Virus record (IMG/VR): IMGVR_UViG_3300027985_000625
Coordinates: 1-38,431 of that record
Source: a virus
Length of the DNA: 38,431 nucleotides
Direction: 5' to 3' (one strand)
A program made the position numbers and the translations under genes. The notes under the pieces are model-generated. The model was not told the origin of the DNA and did no database searches. It saw only the letters and a list, made by a program, of their open reading frames with translations. Positions 6,260 to 29,574 of this stretch are shown here, piece by piece. Position 1 is the first letter of the stretch; the number at the start of each line of letters is the position of its first letter.

Positions 6260-7058
6260 CCGAGCGGTATCGCTGACGATTGGACCATCAGGCCAAGACG
6301 ATATCGACCTATCCGGCTTTCGCATTGCGTTCGAGGTGACGAAGGACGACCGCGGACGACCGGCAAACTCTGCAACCATCGCAGTATACGGCTTGTCTCG
6401 AGACACGCGCAACAGGATCGAGCAGGGCCACAGAGTTACACTTGGGGCCGGGCATGACGGAATAGCCAGGACGATATTCGTCGGCGACGTCACGAAGATC
6501 GACGGCACGAGGGATGCGATAAAGATCGAGGCTGATGACAGCGCCGTGTCTATTTCGCGCATCAACGTAGCGAAAACGTATGATGCAGGAACACCAGCCG
6601 GTGACATGATCGCGGACATAGCTGCAGCTATGGGGTTCGACGGCGTAAACATTTCGGATGTTGAGGGCACGCTGAATGCAGGGTTCGCTGCTATCGGGCC
6701 TGCTGCTGAGGCCATAACCAACCTGACGGACCGGTTCGGGCTTGTGTGGACGGCACAGGACTATGAACTGTTTGTCACCCAGAAAAATGAGCCGATATCG
6801 ACAGACATGCTCCTGCTGACATACGACACAGGGCTCCTTGACACACCTCAGCGCATCACCCAGGACAATTACCGCACGGTCACGACGAAGCCGATGTATC
6901 GAATCAAGGCTAGGCTGATCGGGCATTTTAACCCCGGCAGGATTGTTCAGATCGACACGGACGATCTGAAGGGTATTTTCCGAATCCAGAAGCTTAAGCA
7001 CCATGGCGACACGCGCGGCCAGGCGTGGTATTCAGAACTGGAGGTAATCGAGAGATGA
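6246..7058 (+). CDS. Baseplate hub protein (gp27/gpD-like)
   Basis: The 270-aa product begins inside the end of the plug gene and ends in an ATGA overlap with the spike gene. It shows the fold pattern of hub proteins: a beta-rich N-terminal barrel (FRIAFEVTKDD..RPANSATIAVYGLS), a second barrel with VFVGDV-like strands (here TIFVGDVTKIDG), and a C-terminal barrel ending GIFRIQKLKHHGD followed by AWYSELEVIER. The HxGD..G.WxSELEV ending is typical of this family. It forms the trimeric hub that carries the spike. Confidence 0.78.
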   Translation: MRLFNRAVSLTIGPSGQDDIDLSGFRIAFEVTKDDRGRPANSATIAVYGLSRDTRNRIEQGHRVTLGAGHDGIARTIFVGDVTKIDGTRDAIKIEADDSAVSISRINVAKTYDAGTPAGDMIADIAAAMGFDGVNISDVEGTLNAGFAAIGPAAEAITNLTDRFGLVWTAQDYELFVTQKNEPISTDMLLLTYDTGLLDTPQRITQDNYRTVTTKPMYRIKARLIGHFNPGRIVQIDTDDLKGIFRIQKLKHHGDTRGQAWYSELEVIER

Positions 7059-19687: not shown

Positions 19688-19876
19688 GTGGTACATCTGG
19701 AAGAGAAGAGAGAAGACATTATCAAGTTCTATAATATGGGAATGTCTATCAATAAACTGGCGAAGCATTTCAAGTGCTCGTCTCCTACCATGTCGAAGCA
19801 TCTTGCAGCGTGGGGAGTTCGTGAAATTCAGAGAGTTAACAACATGATTAAAGAATGTGAGGAGACGGAAAAATGA
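19688..19876 (+). CDS. Small HTH transcriptional regulator
   Basis: The 62-aa product starts with GTG after AAAGGGGGT. Residues about 12-46 form a homeodomain/resolvase-like helix-turn-helix: IIKFYNMGMSINKLAKHF followed by KCSSPTMSKHLAAWGV. It is the first plus-strand early gene, next to the divergent control region with its inverted CGTACAAT sites, so it probably regulates one or both early operons. There is no dimerisation domain of the CI type, so it resembles a Cro-sized regulator. Confidence 0.7.
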   Translation: MVHLEEKREDIIKFYNMGMSINKLAKHFKCSSPTMSKHLAAWGVREIQRVNNMIKECEETEK

Positions 19877-20430
19877 CAACGACACTGAACAAAATAAAAG
19901 AACACTCCCCATGCAAAGAAGGCTGGGAAACCCTACTTCGGTCTCTCGGGAAGACAAAAGCGGATGACGAACCACTGAAAATCTCACACATCGTTGAATC
20001 CAACGGGGTACAAGACGCTACCTGGTGCCTGAGGGCCGTAGAAGGCCACGACCGCGAAATAAGACTTTTCGCTGTTTGGTGTGCAAGACAGGTGCAGCAT
20101 CTCATGACAGATAAAAGGAGCCTCGAAGCGCTGGCTGTTGCGGAGAGGTTCGCTGACGGCGCCGCTACCGAAGCGGAGCTCTATGACGCACAGGCCGCAG
20201 CACAGGCCGCAGTACGGGACGCAGCACAGGCCGCAGTACGGGACGCAGCATGGAGCGCAGCGGACGCAGCATGGAGCGCAGCACGGAGCGCAGCACGGAG
20301 CGCAGCGGACGCAGCATGGAGCGCAGCACGGAGCGCAGCACGGAGCGCAGCGGACGCAGCATGGGACGCAGCATGGGACGCACAAAAGCGAAAGCTGCTT
20401 GAAATTTGTGAGGAGGCGGTGAGAGCATGA
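19873..20430 (+). CDS. Imm5-like protein with Ala-rich helical repeats
   Basis: The 185-aa product overlaps the previous gene (ATGA) and follows GGAG. The N-terminal 95 residues, including DATWCLRAVEGHDREIRLFA followed by VWCARQVQHLM and ALAVAERFADG, resemble the Imm5-like putative immunity protein family seen in phages. Residues about 100-175 are an Ala/Trp/Arg/Ser/Asp repeat helix made of units such as DAAWSAARSAARSA. The C-terminus is basic and acidic mixed. Despite the family label, the phage role is unknown. Downstream overlap (ATGA) couples it to the PAPS-reductase-like gene. Confidence 0.6.
   Translation: MTTTLNKIKEHSPCKEGWETLLRSLGKTKADDEPLKISHIVESNGVQDATWCLRAVEGHDREIRLFAVWCARQVQHLMTDKRSLEALAVAERFADGAATEAELYDAQAAAQAAVRDAAQAAVRDAAWSAADAAWSAARSAARSAADAAWSAARSAARSAADAAWDAAWDAQKRKLLEICEEAVRA
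20197..20385 (+). repeat. Coding tandem repeat of 12/9-base units
   Basis: The DNA is built from units such as GCAGCATGGAGC, GCAGCACGGAGC, GCAGTACGGGAC and the shorter GCAGCGGAC. A higher-order block (GCGGAC, one GCAGCATGGAGC and two GCAGCACGGAGC) occurs twice in tandem. The repeat is in frame and encodes the Ala-rich helix of the gene at 19873-20430. Short-read assemblies may miscount the units. Confidence 0.88.
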
Positions 20431-21708: not shown

Positions 21709-23053
21709 TGAATTCATACAAAGAAAAAGGCACGAAAGTGCTGAATTCGGATTTAGCCCCGTTTTTATCCCGGATTGCTCTTTTGATTTTCAACAGCATA
21801 TCATAGATAATGCAGTCAGAAAAGGTCGCATGGGCATATTTGCAGATACAGGACTTGGAAAAACACTTATTCAAATTTCAATCGCTCAAAACATGATTCA
21901 GAAAACAAATGGGAAGGTTCTTATTTTGACACCTCTTGCAGTTGCTTTTCAATTTATCGACGAAGCAGAAAAAATAGGTGTAGATGATATTGAATATTCC
22001 AAAGATGGAAAGCATTCAAAAAAGATTGTCATTTGTAATTATGAGCGTTTGCATCATTTTGATAGTAAAGACTTTCAATGTGTTATTCTGGACGAAAGTT
22101 CAATTTTGAAAAACTTCAATGGGCAAATCAAAAATAAGATTACATCGTTTATCAAAAAAGTTCCATATCGATATCTTGCAACCGCTACACCTTCGCCTAA
22201 TGATTTTATCGAATTAGGTACGAGTAGCGAGGCATTGGGGTATATGGGATACACGGATATGCTGACAAAGTTTTTCCGAAATAACCAGAATAGCGTTGAT
22301 AATAATAACCGTAACATCGGTGAAAAATTCTATCTCAAACCGCATGCGGAACAAGCATTTTTCCAATGGGTTAATACATGGTCAATGATGATCAAAAAAC
22401 CTTCTGATATTGGCTTTTCAGACGAAAGATATGCTTTGCCTGAACTTATTACTAATAGCCATGTGGTAAAAAACAATTCGCTTTTCGGTAATGGAAAATT
22501 ATTTATTACGGAAGCAAAAACAATGCCTGAAATACGGGAAGAACAGAAGCAGACCGAAAAGGAAAGATGCGAAGAAGCTGTTTCACTTGCAAGCGGAAAG
22601 ACGTCCGTATACTGGTGTAATACAAACAATGAAAGTTCATTGCTCAAAGAAATGGATTGCGATGCGGTAGAAATCATTGGCAGCCAAAGCATAGAGCAGA
22701 AGGAGGAAACATTACGAGCATTCGCTCATGGGGATATTAAAAGAATCATCACAAAGGCAAAGATGACAGGGATGGGCCTGAATTGGCAACACTGCAACCA
22801 CTCCGTATTTTTTCCGACATGGAGTTACGAACAATACTATCAAGCAGTAAGACGCTTTTGGCGTTTCGGTCAGACAAAAGACGTGACGATTGATCTTGTT
22901 ATTTCGGAAGGGCAAACAAGGGTGATGAAAGCCCTGCAAGAGAAAACACAAAAGGCACAGGAACTATACGCAAATCTTGTTAAAAATGTGAATTGTGAAT
23001 ATATAGAAACAAAAAATTCCGATCTTAAAAAGATCGAATTGCCAAAATTCTAA
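21698..23053 (+). CDS. Snf2-type DEAD/DEAH helicase (AT-rich cargo)
   Basis: I chose ATG 21698 after GGGAGG, giving 451 residues. An in-frame ATG at 21677 is less supported. Walker A (DTGLGKT, residues about 49-55), LDESS (motif II, about 131), TATPSPND (motif III) and motif VI QAVRRFWRFGQTKDV (about 381-395) define an SNF2-like helicase or translocase. Codons are AT-rich (about 37 % GC by eye) versus neighbours near 53 %, so the gene is probably a recent acquisition. It is paired with the methyltransferase downstream. Confidence 0.85.
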   Translation: MTYDEFIQRKRHESAEFGFSPVFIPDCSFDFQQHIIDNAVRKGRMGIFADTGLGKTLIQISIAQNMIQKTNGKVLILTPLAVAFQFIDEAEKIGVDDIEYSKDGKHSKKIVICNYERLHHFDSKDFQCVILDESSILKNFNGQIKNKITSFIKKVPYRYLATATPSPNDFIELGTSSEALGYMGYTDMLTKFFRNNQNSVDNNNRNIGEKFYLKPHAEQAFFQWVNTWSMMIKKPSDIGFSDERYALPELITNSHVVKNNSLFGNGKLFITEAKTMPEIREEQKQTEKERCEEAVSLASGKTSVYWCNTNNESSLLKEMDCDAVEIIGSQSIEQKEETLRAFAHGDIKRIITKAKMTGMGLNWQHCNHSVFFPTWSYEQYYQAVRRFWRFGQTKDVTIDLVISEGQTRVMKALQEKTQKAQELYANLVKNVNCEYIETKNSDLKKIELPKF

Positions 23054-23063
23054 GGAAATGAAA

Positions 23064-24074
23064 ATGACAAAAGTGAAAAATCAAGTTCTGACGGATAGAT
23101 ATGCAATTTATAATGATGATTGCATGAACGTTATCACGCAATTGGAAGATAGAATCATTGATCTATCAGTGTACTCTCCCCCATTTGCCGGGCTTTACAA
23201 TTACAGTTCTGATCCGAGAGACTTTTCAAACTGCGAAAGCAAAGAACAGTTTTTGGAACAATACGAATTTCTCATCAAAGAAATGGCAAGGATTACAAAG
23301 CCTGGGCGCATCAATGCAGTTCATTGCACAGATGTTTTTGATAATACTTGCCGCCTTTGGGACTTTCCTCACGAGATAATAAAACTGCACGAAAAATACG
23401 GTTTTGAATATCGTAATCGTATTACCATTTGGAAAGAGCCGCTGAAAGTCAGAATGCGAACTATGGTCCAAAGCCTAATGCATAAATTCATTGTTGAGGA
23501 CAGCACGAAATGCTTTACCGCAATGCCTGACTATATGCTTATTTTTACGCGCAAAGGAGAAAATGAAGTTCCTGTAACGCACCCATTCGGTATCAATGAA
23601 TACGCAGGAGAAATCCCTATCCTACCAAACATTCTACGCGCATGGAATAATGCAAATGGTACGGACTTCAATGCGGATGAGCTTTGGGATCATCTTAATA
23701 AAACAAACGATGATGAGAAAATCACGAAACTGAACCACTACATTTGGCAACGGTATGCCTCTGCCGTATGGGATGATATCCGTATAGACAATGTACTTCC
23801 ATTCAGAGACGCAAAAGAAGAGGACGATGAAAAGCATGTTCATCCGTTGCAACTTGACGTTATCGACCGTATCGTCGAGCTGTATAGTAACCCTGATGAG
23901 GTTGTATTCACTCCGTTCATGGGTGTTGGAAGCGAAGTATTCAGCCCGGTATCGATGGGACGTAAAGCTATTGGTATTGAATTGAAAGATAGCTACTTTA
24001 AGCAAGCTATAATTAATATGAAAGAGGCCGAAAAACGTTACGAAAAAAAATATGTTCAGCCAAGTCTATTTTAG
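23064..24074 (+). CDS. Site-specific DNA methyltransferase, beta class
   Basis: I chose ATG 23064 because AAGGA lies at a sensible distance, while ATG 23058 is too close. The catalytic SPPF motif is at about residues 38-41 and the SAM-binding TPFMGVGSE motif at about 282-290. This order (catalytic motif first) marks the beta class of N4-cytosine or N6-adenine methyltransferases. The gene is AT-rich like the helicase and immediately follows it. The pair may methylate phage DNA to escape restriction, or be a split helicase-methylase similar in concept to P1 DarB. Confidence 0.85.
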   Translation: MTKVKNQVLTDRYAIYNDDCMNVITQLEDRIIDLSVYSPPFAGLYNYSSDPRDFSNCESKEQFLEQYEFLIKEMARITKPGRINAVHCTDVFDNTCRLWDFPHEIIKLHEKYGFEYRNRITIWKEPLKVRMRTMVQSLMHKFIVEDSTKCFTAMPDYMLIFTRKGENEVPVTHPFGINEYAGEIPILPNILRAWNNANGTDFNADELWDHLNKTNDDEKITKLNHYIWQRYASAVWDDIRIDNVLPFRDAKEEDDEKHVHPLQLDVIDRIVELYSNPDEVVFTPFMGVGSEVFSPVSMGRKAIGIELKDSYFKQAIINMKEAEKRYEKKYVQPSLF

Positions 24075-24363: not shown

Positions 24364-24708
24364 ATGAGAGTCCTGACACAGAAAGAGAAGGCCGTCTTCG
24401 AGGCTGCCTTCACAAGCATCATGCGCGTCGCATCCGTCGAAGCCGATATCGTCATGGATATCGTCGCAGTGGGCCAGAAGCTGCCGCAGGCGTACGTAGA
24501 CCTTATGTTCGAGCTTGGAGGCATGGCGACAATGCAGAACCTATTCTGCCCGCTCTACAAGGAAAAGGCGATGGGGTGGTTGATTGAATACTGCTTCCGG
24601 CTCAGACTGCAGCCACGTGCTTTTGAGTTCAGGGGGATGCTGGCGATCAACAGGCGGCCGATCCCTGCCGAAGAGCACACGTATATGCAACATTCGCAGG
24701 AAACATGA
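24364..24708 (+). CDS. Hypothetical helical protein
   Basis: The 114-aa product starts at ATG 24364, two bases after the previous stop. An upstream in-frame ATG at 24346 is possible. It is helical with EKAVFEAAFTSIMRVA, VDLMFELGGMATMQNLF and AMGWLIEYCFRLRLQP. The stop overlaps the extended -10 promoter of the RNA candidate. No function is recognised. Confidence 0.55.
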   Translation: MRVLTQKEKAVFEAAFTSIMRVASVEADIVMDIVAVGQKLPQAYVDLMFELGGMATMQNLFCPLYKEKAMGWLIEYCFRLRLQPRAFEFRGMLAINRRPIPAEEHTYMQHSQET

Positions 24709-24714
24709 TATAAT
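24706..24714 (+). promoter_or_regulatory. Extended -10 promoter for the RNA candidate
   Basis: The sequence TGATATAAT is a perfect extended -10 element (TGnTATAAT). The -35 position about 17 bases upstream reads TGCAAC, which is weak, but extended -10 promoters do not need a good -35. Transcription would start near 24721, exactly at the 5' end of the structured region. Confidence 0.68.
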
Positions 24715-24720
24715 CGTAAT

Positions 24721-24841
24721 CTCGCCCGGCAGTGCCGACCGCTGGGCATTAAGTCTTAATAAGCAGCTCCGATGCGCCATCCCGGCCCCGCTACGAGCTG
24801 CCTATTAAGCCTTAAAGTTGGGCCGGGAATCCCTTCTTTTT
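24721..24841 (+). ncRNA. Candidate structured small RNA or leader switch
   Basis: No protein frame spans this interval. The arm at 24755-24769 pairs with 24795-24809 at 14 of 15 positions, and five more pairs (24749-24753 with 24811-24815) extend the stem. CCCGGCCC at 24781-24788 is fully complementary to GGGCCGGG at 24820-24827, while CCCGGC at 24725-24730 competes for the same bases. TTCTTTTT at 24834-24841 follows as a terminator tract. It lies between a perfect extended -10 and the gene at 24866. It may be a free phage RNA or a leader with alternative folds. Confidence 0.58.
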
Positions 24842-24865
24842 GGCTAATTCAAACAAAGGATTAGC

Positions 24866-25057
24866 TTGAAACTCACCGCAAAATCATTTGAAGCGAAAGC
24901 AAAAAAGGCAATTTTGTCTAACGGTTCCTCACGCTATGACCTCAACGTGCTAGTTAACAAAGCCGTACATCAACTTAGAACATCAAAAGAGCACGATCCT
25001 GAACTCGCACATCAGGTGACGATTGCGAAAGAGCTTTTGAGATTGGAGCTGGTGTAG
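24866..25057 (+). CDS. Small helical protein before the replication gene
   Basis: The 63-aa product starts with TTG, with AAAGGA six bases upstream. It has a basic N-terminus (FEAKAKKAILSNGSS) and a helical C-terminus (LAHQVTIAKELLRLELV). Its TAG overlaps the GTG start of the replication protein, so translation is probably coupled. Function unknown. Confidence 0.55.
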   Translation: MKLTAKSFEAKAKKAILSNGSSRYDLNVLVNKAVHQLRTSKEHDPELAHQVTIAKELLRLELV

Positions 25058-25920
25058 TGGCACGGATCAGAACGGTAAAGCCTGACCTATTCAGGCACGA
25101 AGAGCTCTTTGAAGCCGAGCGCGTTAGTGGTCTACCGCTGCGCCTGGCGTTCATCGGACTCTTCACGGTAGCCGATCGAGATGGTAGATTCAAGTGGCGC
25201 CCGCGGCAGCTGAAGCTCGACGTGCTCCCATATGACGATATCGACTTTTCACGCGTGCTTGACGCGTTAGCCACGCGTGGCTTTATCGTGAAGTACACCA
25301 AAGATGGGGAGCATTTCGGGTTCATACCGACATTCACGACCCACCAGGTCATCAACAACAGGGAAAAAGAGTCAGAACTCCCACCTTACGAGGATTCAGA
25401 GACAGAAGAGCCCGAAAATACGGAGAATGATCAACGCGTGGACGACGCGTGCCAGACGCGTCACGTTCCTGCACAAGGGGAAAGGGAAGGGAAGGGAAGG
25501 GAAAAGGAAGGGGAAGATAATACATGTCGCGACTCTGGCGAGCTCGACGAAGCGAAAGAGGTAGCCTACCATCTCCTCGGAAGAATTGTGAATCACAAGC
25601 CGAATTTCAAGAAGCCGTCCGACAAAGCATTCGATGGATGGGTGAACGATATCGGGAAATCACTGCGTATTGACGGCAGAACGAAGCAGGAGCTCTTCGG
25701 CTGCATCGAGTGGATATACACTACGAAGGACGGAGAGTTCTGGATACCTAACATCCTGAGCGGAAAGAAGCTCAGGGAGAAGTTCGACACGATGGAAGCG
25801 AAGATGATGAACAGCAGGGAATACCGTAATGCTAAGACAATCAAGGAGTGGGAGCCGACGAACCCGATGACTGGAAAACCATACACGGAGGAAGAAAATG
25901 CTTACGAAATCTCTTTTTGA
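25057..25920 (+). CDS. Replication initiator / replisome organiser (lambda O-like role)
   Basis: The 287-aa protein starts with GTG overlapping the previous stop. The N-terminal 105 residues form a winged-helix domain typical of phage replisome organisers (MARIRTVKPDLFRHEELFEA, then LRLAFIGLFTVADRDGRFKW). A charged low-complexity linker (about residues 110-165) follows, then a helical C-terminal domain (DKAFDGWVNDIG, WIYTTKDGEFWIPNILSG). It would bind the origin and load helicase. Two ACGCGT triplets and a purine tract lie within the gene. The next gene is a DUF6475-type protein, comparable to a helicase loader. Confidence 0.75.
   Translation: MARIRTVKPDLFRHEELFEAERVSGLPLRLAFIGLFTVADRDGRFKWRPRQLKLDVLPYDDIDFSRVLDALATRGFIVKYTKDGEHFGFIPTFTTHQVINNREKESELPPYEDSETEEPENTENDQRVDDACQTRHVPAQGEREGKGREKEGEDNTCRDSGELDEAKEVAYHLLGRIVNHKPNFKKPSDKAFDGWVNDIGKSLRIDGRTKQELFGCIEWIYTTKDGEFWIPNILSGKKLREKFDTMEAKMMNSREYRNAKTIKEWEPTNPMTGKPYTEEENAYEISF
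25251..25461 (+). repeat. Iteron-like ACGCGT clusters; candidate replication origin
   Basis: ACGCGT occurs at 25251, 25262 and 25273, and again at 25434, 25445 and 25456. Each triplet has exactly 11-base spacing, about one turn of the helix. The second triplet lies in the low-complexity linker of the initiator, where a protein reason for it is weak. Its placement inside a lambda O-like gene resembles lambda ori. A 43-base purine tract follows 14 bases later. Confidence 0.65.
25475..25517 (+). repeat. Purine tract with five- and four-G runs
   Basis: A 43-base stretch contains only A and G, with six runs of three or four G: 25477-25480, 25484-25486, 25489-25491, 25494-25496, 25499-25501 and 25510-25513. 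The central AAGGG unit repeats at 5-base spacing. It could form a G-quadruplex or triplex and may be the melting or helicase-loading part of the origin. It encodes the Glu/Gly/Lys-rich linker of the replication protein. Confidence 0.7.
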
Positions 25921-26512
25921 CGAGATGATGTTCATGATGTGCGAGATTTACAATCGTGAAGCAAAGAAGCTTCTGCTCAACGGCTATTGGATGATTCTGA
26001 AGCACATGAGCGACGACGACTTCAAGGCCGCAATTTTGTCGTTACTGGCAACGAGACAGTCACCAGCAATGCCGAAGCCTGCCGAGATCATGGAATTTAT
26101 TCGACCTGACCTCGAAGCAATCGCAACGCTTGCCGTTATCGACATTGAGAACGCGGTTAGCCGGCACGGAGTCTACTCCAGCGTATCGTTCGACGACCCA
26201 GTCGTAAACAGCATCGTCGATCACCTCGGCGGATGGATAGCAGTATGCAGAATGGACCTCAACGACTGGAAGTTTGCGAAGAAAGAAATTCCTAGGCTGT
26301 ACGGGGTCTATGCCAGGAGGGAACGACACCCGGAGCACCTGGTAGGAATGCATGAGAGGTCGAACGGATTTGTTCAGGAGGTGCGCACGGTCGGCGCAGG
26401 GTACCGCCTGCCGAACGTCAGGACCGTTCATGCGCTTAACCCGCAGCCGAAAAAAGACATGGCGGTGGTATCGATGCTGGCGGAATCAAAAAAAGTGAAG
26501 GAGAACGCATGA
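25898..26512 (+). CDS. DUF6475-like protein (possible helicase loader)
   Basis: The 204-aa protein overlaps the replication gene end by 23 bases and starts after GGAGG. Helical N-terminus (FDEMMFMMCEIYNREAKKLL, then LNGYWMILKHMSDDDFKAAI) and a RQSPAMPKPAEIMEFIRP segment fit DUF6475 proteins, which usually sit after replication initiators. The position matches lambda P or a DnaC-like loader, but it lacks a Walker A motif. Function is inferred from context. Confidence 0.6.
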   Translation: MLTKSLFDEMMFMMCEIYNREAKKLLLNGYWMILKHMSDDDFKAAILSLLATRQSPAMPKPAEIMEFIRPDLEAIATLAVIDIENAVSRHGVYSSVSFDDPVVNSIVDHLGGWIAVCRMDLNDWKFAKKEIPRLYGVYARRERHPEHLVGMHERSNGFVQEVRTVGAGYRLPNVRTVHALNPQPKKDMAVVSMLAESKKVKENA

Positions 26513-28838: not shown

Positions 28839-28868
28839 TTGACATGTTAACCGAAATACGGTTATAAT
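28839..28868 (+). promoter_or_regulatory. Consensus sigma70 promoter
   Basis: TTGACA at 28839-28844 and TATAAT at 28863-28868 match the -35 and -10 consensus exactly, with an 18-base spacer. The octamer CGAAATAC occurs at 28829-28836 and again inside the spacer at 28852-28859, 23 bases apart, which may be operator half-sites. The next gene starts at 28899 after an AAAGGA site. Confidence 0.85.
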
Positions 28869-28898: not shown

Positions 28899-29282
28899 AT
28901 GAACATTAACGATCTTACGATTGGACAAGCTAAGGAACTGGCCGCTATGTTTGGCAATACACAAACTTCAAATGATAACGGGCTCTGCTCCATGATTGGC
29001 AAAAAAGTTATCATTCGGACATACTCTGCCGGTGTATGGTTCGGAGAGCTCGCGCAAAAAGCTGGGAAAGAAGTTATTCTAAAAAACGGACGCCGCATGT
29101 ACCAGTGGTGGGCGGCTGAGTCCATTAGCCTTAGTGGGGTTGCTCTTTACGGAGTTAAGAACGAAAAATCAAAAATTGTAGAAGCTGTTCCTGAGATCTG
29201 GCTGGAAGCTATTGAGATTTTGCCGTGTTCAGAAACTGCAATCAAGTCACTTGAAAGTGCCCCAAATGTCAAAGCTCAGTAA
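28899..29282 (+). CDS. Small beta-rich phage protein
   Basis: The 127-aa product has DLTIGQAKELAAMFGN at the N-terminus and two beta-rich blocks (GKKVIIRTYSAGVWFGEL, and KEVILKNGRRMYQWWAAES). The C-terminus ends TAIKSLESAPNVKAQ. The pattern resembles the DUF6948-type phage proteins that often precede glycine-rich repeat genes. It is expressed from the consensus promoter at 28839. Function unknown. Confidence 0.55.
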   Translation: MNINDLTIGQAKELAAMFGNTQTSNDNGLCSMIGKKVIIRTYSAGVWFGELAQKAGKEVILKNGRRMYQWWAAESISLSGVALYGVKNEKSKIVEAVPEIWLEAIEILPCSETAIKSLESAPNVKAQ

Positions 29283-29574
29283 ACCAATAGAAAACGGCGA
29301 CAGCGGCTACGGCTACGGCAACGGCAACGGCAACGGAGACGGCAACGGCTACGGCTACGGCAACGGCAACGGCAACGGAGACGGCAACGGCTACGGCTAC
29401 GGCAACGGCAACGGCAACGGCGACGGCTACGGCTACGGCAACGGCAACGGCTACGGCAACGGCGACGGCTACGGCAACGGCAACGGCAACGGCAGCGGCA
29501 ACGGCTATGGCTATGGCGACGGCAAAGGCTACGGCAACGGCGACGGCTACGGCAACGGCGGCGGAAATGACTGA
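29266..29574 (+). CDS. Glycine-rich GYGNGNG repeat protein
   Basis: The 102-aa product starts at ATG 29266 inside the end of the previous gene. After a 13-residue head, it consists of glycine alternating with Tyr, Asn and Asp. The unit GYGYGNGNGNGDGN (14 residues) occurs in tandem at the start, then degenerate copies follow to a GGND end. Alternating GX repeats of this type may be an intrinsically disordered or phase-separating protein, or a structural adhesin, but nothing is proved. It overlaps the next gene by eight bases. Confidence 0.6.
   Translation: MSKLSKPIENGDSGYGYGNGNGNGDGNGYGYGNGNGNGDGNGYGYGNGNGNGDGYGYGNGNGYGNGDGYGNGNGNGSGNGYGYGDGKGYGNGDGYGNGGGND
29305..29430 (+). repeat. 42-base in-frame tandem repeat
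   Basis: Three copies of a 42-base unit (29305-29346, 29347-29388, 29389-29430) made of hexamers GGCTAC, GGCAAC and GGAGAC or GGCGAC. The third copy differs at the end. The hexamer pattern continues imperfectly to about 29565. Opposite-strand frames through it are artefacts. Confidence 0.88.

Follow-up and report, generated by a model that had tools for sequence, protein, structure and literature searches.

The locus examined here raises the question of why the stretch just ahead of a set of phage replication genes should carry a promoter, a long hairpin and, below that hairpin, a sequence complementary to the hairpin's own loop. The window, that is, the whole stretch of DNA that was analysed, is a virus record and comprises 38,431 bases; its element region (24706-24841) was read directly. 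An original prediction, made from the sequence alone, had seen here a phage small RNA or RNA switch preceding replication genes, and the location is as described, with a gene for a replication initiation protein of PHROG 16167 in the downstream operon. The features to which the argument refers are the following.

24706-24714, plus strand: extended -10 promoter TGATATAAT, read from the sequence
24724-24747, plus strand: hairpin H1 (GCCCGGC/GCTGGGC), from folding
24749-24769, plus strand: 5' arm of the H2 stem, from folding and complementarity
24770-24794, plus strand: H2 loop
24780-24788, plus strand: putative antisense segment TCCCGGCCC inside the H2 loop, from complementarity to the target
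24795-24815, plus strand: 3' arm of the H2 stem, from folding and complementarity
24820-24828, plus strand: target GGGCCGGGA, complementary at 9 of 9 positions to the loop segment TCCCGGCCC
24834-24841, plus strand: T-tract TTCTTTTT, read from the sequence and not conserved in relatives
24855-24860, plus strand: ribosome-binding site AAAGGA of the first gene, by inspection
24866-25057, plus strand: gene of 63 aa with a TTG start, homologue in phage L027 (32-34% identity, E 5e-6)
25057-25920, plus strand: replication initiation protein, PHROG 16167 (E 2.6e-46)
25898-26512, plus strand: DUF6475-domain protein, the next gene of the operon

Direct reading bore out the perfect TGnTATAAT at 24706-24714; TGNTATAAT occurs twice in the 38 kb window, where 0.6 occurrences are expected, and one copy is the element's promoter, from which RNA would be expected to start near 24719-24722, as placed by inference from the -10 element. 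The predicted stem is also present, with an inner part of 15 positions and one mismatch (24755-24769 with 24795-24809) and an outer part in which a second mismatch is followed by five pairs (24749-24753 with 24811-24815), so that the 21-nt arms of H2 have two mismatches and 90% complementarity overall. The complementarity between loop and downstream sequence, proposed for 24781-24788 and 24820-24827, turned out to be one position longer. The motif CCCGGC at 24725-24730, which had been put forward as a competitor for the same target, can indeed pair with it, but the minimum-energy fold places it in the separate hairpin H1. The leader fold of the window is more stable than those of dinucleotide shuffles (z -2.9; 3/200 shuffles), and only one of 20,000 shuffles of 24691-24880 reproduced both a stem of at least 17 of 20 pairs and a loop/downstream complementarity of at least 9 nt. 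The plus strand of the window has just two copies of the 8-mer GGGCCGGG, one at the target and the other within a gene, at 6445.

About 38 nt separate the target from the start codon of the first gene downstream; this gene has a good ribosome-binding site, and its 63-aa product has no Pfam match. Two short reading frames lie in the leader, one at 24772 (30 aa) without Shine-Dalgarno support and one at 24840 (9 aa) with a poorly spaced Shine-Dalgarno sequence and a stop overlapping the start at 24866, and to regard either as a gene would be speculation. No terminator or processing site able to release a short RNA was identified. The replication-gene relatives of the window phage point to several groups, Campylobacterota included. 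Elsewhere in the window, an AT-rich cassette of a helicase and a DNA methyltransferase (21750-24050; 38-40% GC against about 53%) is about 72% identical in DNA to cassettes of Flavobacterium and Rhodobacteraceae phages and is probably a shared module acquired recently. A protein with a long AAWSAARSAAD-like repeated stretch lies at 19873-20430, a perfect TTGACA-18-TATAAT promoter at 28839-28868 between the terminase gene and a DUF6948 gene, and a frame with a long G-Y/N/D-G tandem repeat (GYGNGNGNGDG...) at 29212-29574, 3' of the terminase gene.

Searches by letters gave little. A DNA search of phage and plasmid collections returned no match to the element, and an Rfam search gave none for it under either strict or permissive settings, C4 not being among the permissive matches of the window region. 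Exact 15-mers scanned against viral contigs matched only unrelated sequences, those inspected having neither common flanking sequence nor common structure, and were discarded.

The closest relative of the window phage, found via its terminase (70% identical), is the 38-kb phage L027, which carries the homologue of the 63-aa gene and, in the leader of the preceding gene, an element with the order TGGTACAAT, short hairpin, long hairpin and downstream target. The gene behind this element 1 is an AntA/KilAC antirepressor located just before the homologue. Its long hairpin repeats the pattern of the window's (7 pairs, mismatch, 7 pairs, mismatch, 4 pairs), and its loop segment TGGCGGGGTCG is complementary at 11 of 11 positions to the downstream CGACCCCGCCA; in both phages some 38-60 nt lie between the target and the start codon that follows. 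Of the stem sequence the two have no more in common than a short core, TTTAAT/ATTAAG against CTTAAT/ATTAAG, and loop and target consist of wholly different letters with the pairing kept. Homologous positions thus preserve the pairing in changed sequence, so that the loss of pairing which the original prediction had named as its own refutation did not occur, and the expectation of an RNA element before replication genes is well supported. A second L027 element emerged from a descriptor scan, with a loop complementary at 13 of 13 positions to the ribosome-binding site of a short gene before the DnaB helicase.

The descriptor scan found the arrangement in 17 elements from 15 phage records, with about 0.5 matches expected by chance, a count to be read with the fact that thresholds were set after the first examples had been seen, for which shuffling and a negative set drawn from other phages compensate only in part. 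Among the carriers are records with relatives of the L027 DnaB helicase (L132, L135, L138, L139, L140, L143 and L144-L149) and the Sulfurimonas phage SNW-1, which has been published as a prophage of S. indica (PMC11290706). SNW-1 has two elements, one before the CII gene with a loop/target match of 6 nt and one, with a match of 11 nt, in front of a short gene that lacks annotation and precedes dnaB, and one of them is recognized at E 3e-8 by a covariance model built from L144-L149. That model (R2) gave only weak scores, of at most 24 bits and treated as noise, against 397 genomes; a two-sequence model (R1) was too weak to recover even its own source sequences. When these loci (160 kb) and the window were scanned strictly, 14 sense-strand matches were obtained, 13 of which are leader elements, and 12 shuffles gave 0-2 matches (mean 0.5). 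Elements targeting a Shine-Dalgarno sequence gave 13 matches in the lineage against 0-1 in shuffles. Other phage sequence (2.6 Mb searched, both strands counted) gave 12 against 5-9, without clear enrichment, and the arrangement is therefore not a general phage feature. Two further strong descriptor matches, in L095 and L110, lay within open coding frames and were set aside as chance finds.

All elements have their target downstream, and positions before initiator or helicase operons occur among them. The target covers the ribosome-binding site in L027 element 2, SNW-1, L138-L140 and L143-L149; it lies upstream of that site in the window, L027 element 1 and L135, the last preceding a KilA-N protein gene. 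Only L027 element 1 closely matches the window element in structure, most of the others being Shine-Dalgarno-targeting and from more distant phages. Finding the same design, in other letters, before early or replication genes elsewhere makes this look like a little-described family of phage control RNAs. A gene of about 43-48 aa lies between the RNA element and dnaB in three phages (L216 3367-3499, L027 1742-1888, L132 3362-3492); the three are alike by eye, and this short gene is unannotated in SNW-1 and without a Pfam match. Just upstream of H1, a second conserved hairpin with the loop core TTTGGCGA/TTGGCGG occurs in L144-L149, L132, L135 and SNW-1 (L216 3180-3225).

Comparison among relatives separates what is kept from what changes. 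Across six alignable sequences, every stem cell is paired and three pairs have changed on both sides, while sliding the partner by one base reduces pairing to below 47%; over 15 elements most stem positions show at least three pair types. The short hairpin precedes the long one in L027 as well, and within L144-L149 identity is 97% in the H1 region, 89-90% in the stem arms and 86% at the coding start, but 54% in the loop and 56% in the target, which nevertheless remain complementary over 7-10 nt. What is directly seen in these phages is thus the architecture and its position, both kept while the letters change, and a loop and target that diverge together. In 12 elements the loop matches its own target over 7-13 nt and the targets of others over a mean of 5.2. 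The L146 loop can pair with the targets of L144 and L149 as well, and the L149 loop matches the L145 target over 10 nt and its own over 7. The L149 case counts against an antisense reading, although it also suggests that specificity has changed or been exchanged between relatives; cross-fits would be expected if specificity types are shared or exchanged. Joint divergence of loop and target on a conserved scaffold is as expected of an allele-specific antisense RNA.

The reading that best accommodates these observations, with a probability of roughly 0.55, is that the element is the leader RNA of an early operon, with a loop that pairs as antisense, probably in trans, and thereby silences that operon. 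Transcription from 24706-24714 would yield H1 and then the long H2 hairpin, the loop of which would display UCCCGGCCC; this segment would pair with GGGCCGGGA in transcripts of the same operon, which would stay off. We infer that the leader is transcribed and represses its operon, and that it, or an H1-H2 RNA processed from it, may act in trans as immunity or copy control.

Whether the pairing takes place within or between molecules depends largely on geometry and on the divergence pattern. The linker from the stem base to the target measures 0-10 nt beside stems of 17-21 bp (18 in L135, where the stem was cut short by the script), and 0-21 nt separate the antisense segment from the stem top; in the window the two distances are, by inspection, 4 and 6 nt. 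Because these linkers are short beside the stems, an intact hairpin could hardly reach its own target in several elements, although partial opening of H2 would permit it. H2 exceeds the loop/target helix in stability in those elements for which both were computed as full hairpins, so that the default state would leave the loop free for another molecule. Divergence pattern and geometry together lead us to favour intermolecular pairing over a purely internal switch. The original prediction had taken the pairings to be mutually exclusive within one molecule, which the short linkers do suggest, but pairing between molecules is at least as likely.

A switch acting in cis, with intact H2 leaving the target free and the operon on, and opened H2 letting the loop pair with the target and turn the gene off, is nevertheless a serious if rather unlikely alternative. 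Opening might be brought about by a protein, by temperature or by a stalled ribosome; alternatively, a pseudoknot could form once H2 is partly open. Both pairings lie closely spaced within one molecule, and the stability ranking of H2, with a target partly unpaired in the folded leader, is what a default-on switch would need. Such a switch has difficulty with the same few-nucleotide linkers, and it explains poorly why loop and target diverge so fast beside a stem about 90% identical.

The original prediction had also leaned towards a terminator or antiterminator, in which the loop/target helix and the T-tract would form an intrinsic terminator and H2 the antiterminator. The window does have a GC-rich 9-bp helix and the T-tract, but the tract begins five bases past the helix, away from the canonical terminator position, and a terminator scan calls nothing there. 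As a T-tract does not directly follow the target in L027 element 1 or 2, L132, SNW-1 or the other Shine-Dalgarno-targeting elements inspected, this attenuator is improbable and the T-tract of the window is probably incidental. It is more improbable still that the arms matter as DNA: each contains the palindrome TTAAGnCTTAA (24749-24759, 24805-24815), which could form an operator pair or part of an origin, and these are its only exact copies in the window, yet it is absent from the related loci examined, and L027 retains the RNA-type pairing without it.

For antisense silencing by the leader loop, the weakest step in the window is the route of repression. In the Shine-Dalgarno-targeting relatives the pairing would cover the ribosome-binding site; where the target lies upstream of it (window, L027 element 1, L135), the route must differ, candidates being translational coupling or, by analogy with P4, transcription termination, and in the window and L027 element 1 the block would fall on coupling or on transcript elongation. 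In the window phage and the L027 phage, the search turned up neither a tyrosine integrase nor an HTH_3 repressor, whereas integrases are carried by five relatives and SNW-1, so that lysogenic immunity through the element is plausible for the relatives only.

With somewhat less than even odds, these elements may represent an undescribed class of immunity RNA, consisting of one hairpin with a loop antisense either to the leader or to the first ribosome-binding site of an early or replication operon. On this tentative reading, loop and target would diversify together into many mutually blind specificity types, and the class would, equally tentatively, be at home in the window's phage as well as in Sulfurimonas phages and their relatives. 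To our knowledge, detailed accounts of RNA-based self-control in phage early operons come mainly from a small number of enterobacterial systems (P4, P1/P7, Gifsy-1). If the reading is true, antisense self-control of early operons is more widespread, in a family absent from Rfam that is conserved in structure and diverse in sequence; loop and target would be readable specificity pairs predicting which phages exclude each other, and SNW-1 offers a named host for the family.

Among known systems, leaders of plasmid replication genes (ColIb-P9, IncB) also have a hairpin loop complementary to sequence before the rep gene, forming loop/SD-region pseudoknots, but their antisense RNA is counter-transcribed and a leader peptide is involved, whereas the promoter scan here lists no opposite-strand promoter near the window element. 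We know of no sequence relation between the elements described here and P4 CI RNA. The latter comes from the untranslated leader of a phage replication operon, is antisense to that same leader and represses the replication genes by premature transcription termination, with target sites on either side (seqA, seqC) (PMC4825925). A putative antisense RNA in a replication-operon leader is likewise what is seen here, with the difference that only a downstream target was found, in relatives mostly the ribosome-binding site. IsrK of prophage Gifsy-1 is both the 5' part of the mRNA isrK-orf45-anrP and a small RNA acting on it (PMC4825925), a comparable double role for a leader, but translation is activated by IsrK, which also carries a terminator of its own, and neither feature is seen here. 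C4 of P1/P7 (RF01695) shares a transcript with its target, which follows it closely and lies near the ribosome-binding site; C4 is processed by RNase P to about 77 nt and acts in trans. Its loops vary on a conserved scaffold (PMC5320573). The elements resemble C4 in having a target that follows on the one transcript, close to the ribosome-binding site (in the window about 38 nt before the start), in the variable loops and conserved scaffold of L144-L149, and in the antirepressor downstream, ant in P1 and AntA/KilAC in L027, which together with the KilA-N gene of L135 recalls the P1 ant/kilA region. On the other hand, C4 has three stems and two antisense loops (a', b') in place of H1 and one long hairpin with a single antisense loop, and the RF01695 model gives no hit at E<=10 in six records. 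In function the element is thus probably most like P4 CI RNA, by its replication operon, and P1 C4 RNA, by its target near the ribosome-binding site and its antirepressor, while the lack of a C4 model match, of the C4 layout of three stems and two loops and of a P4-type upstream target points to a self-targeting phage antisense RNA outside both families.
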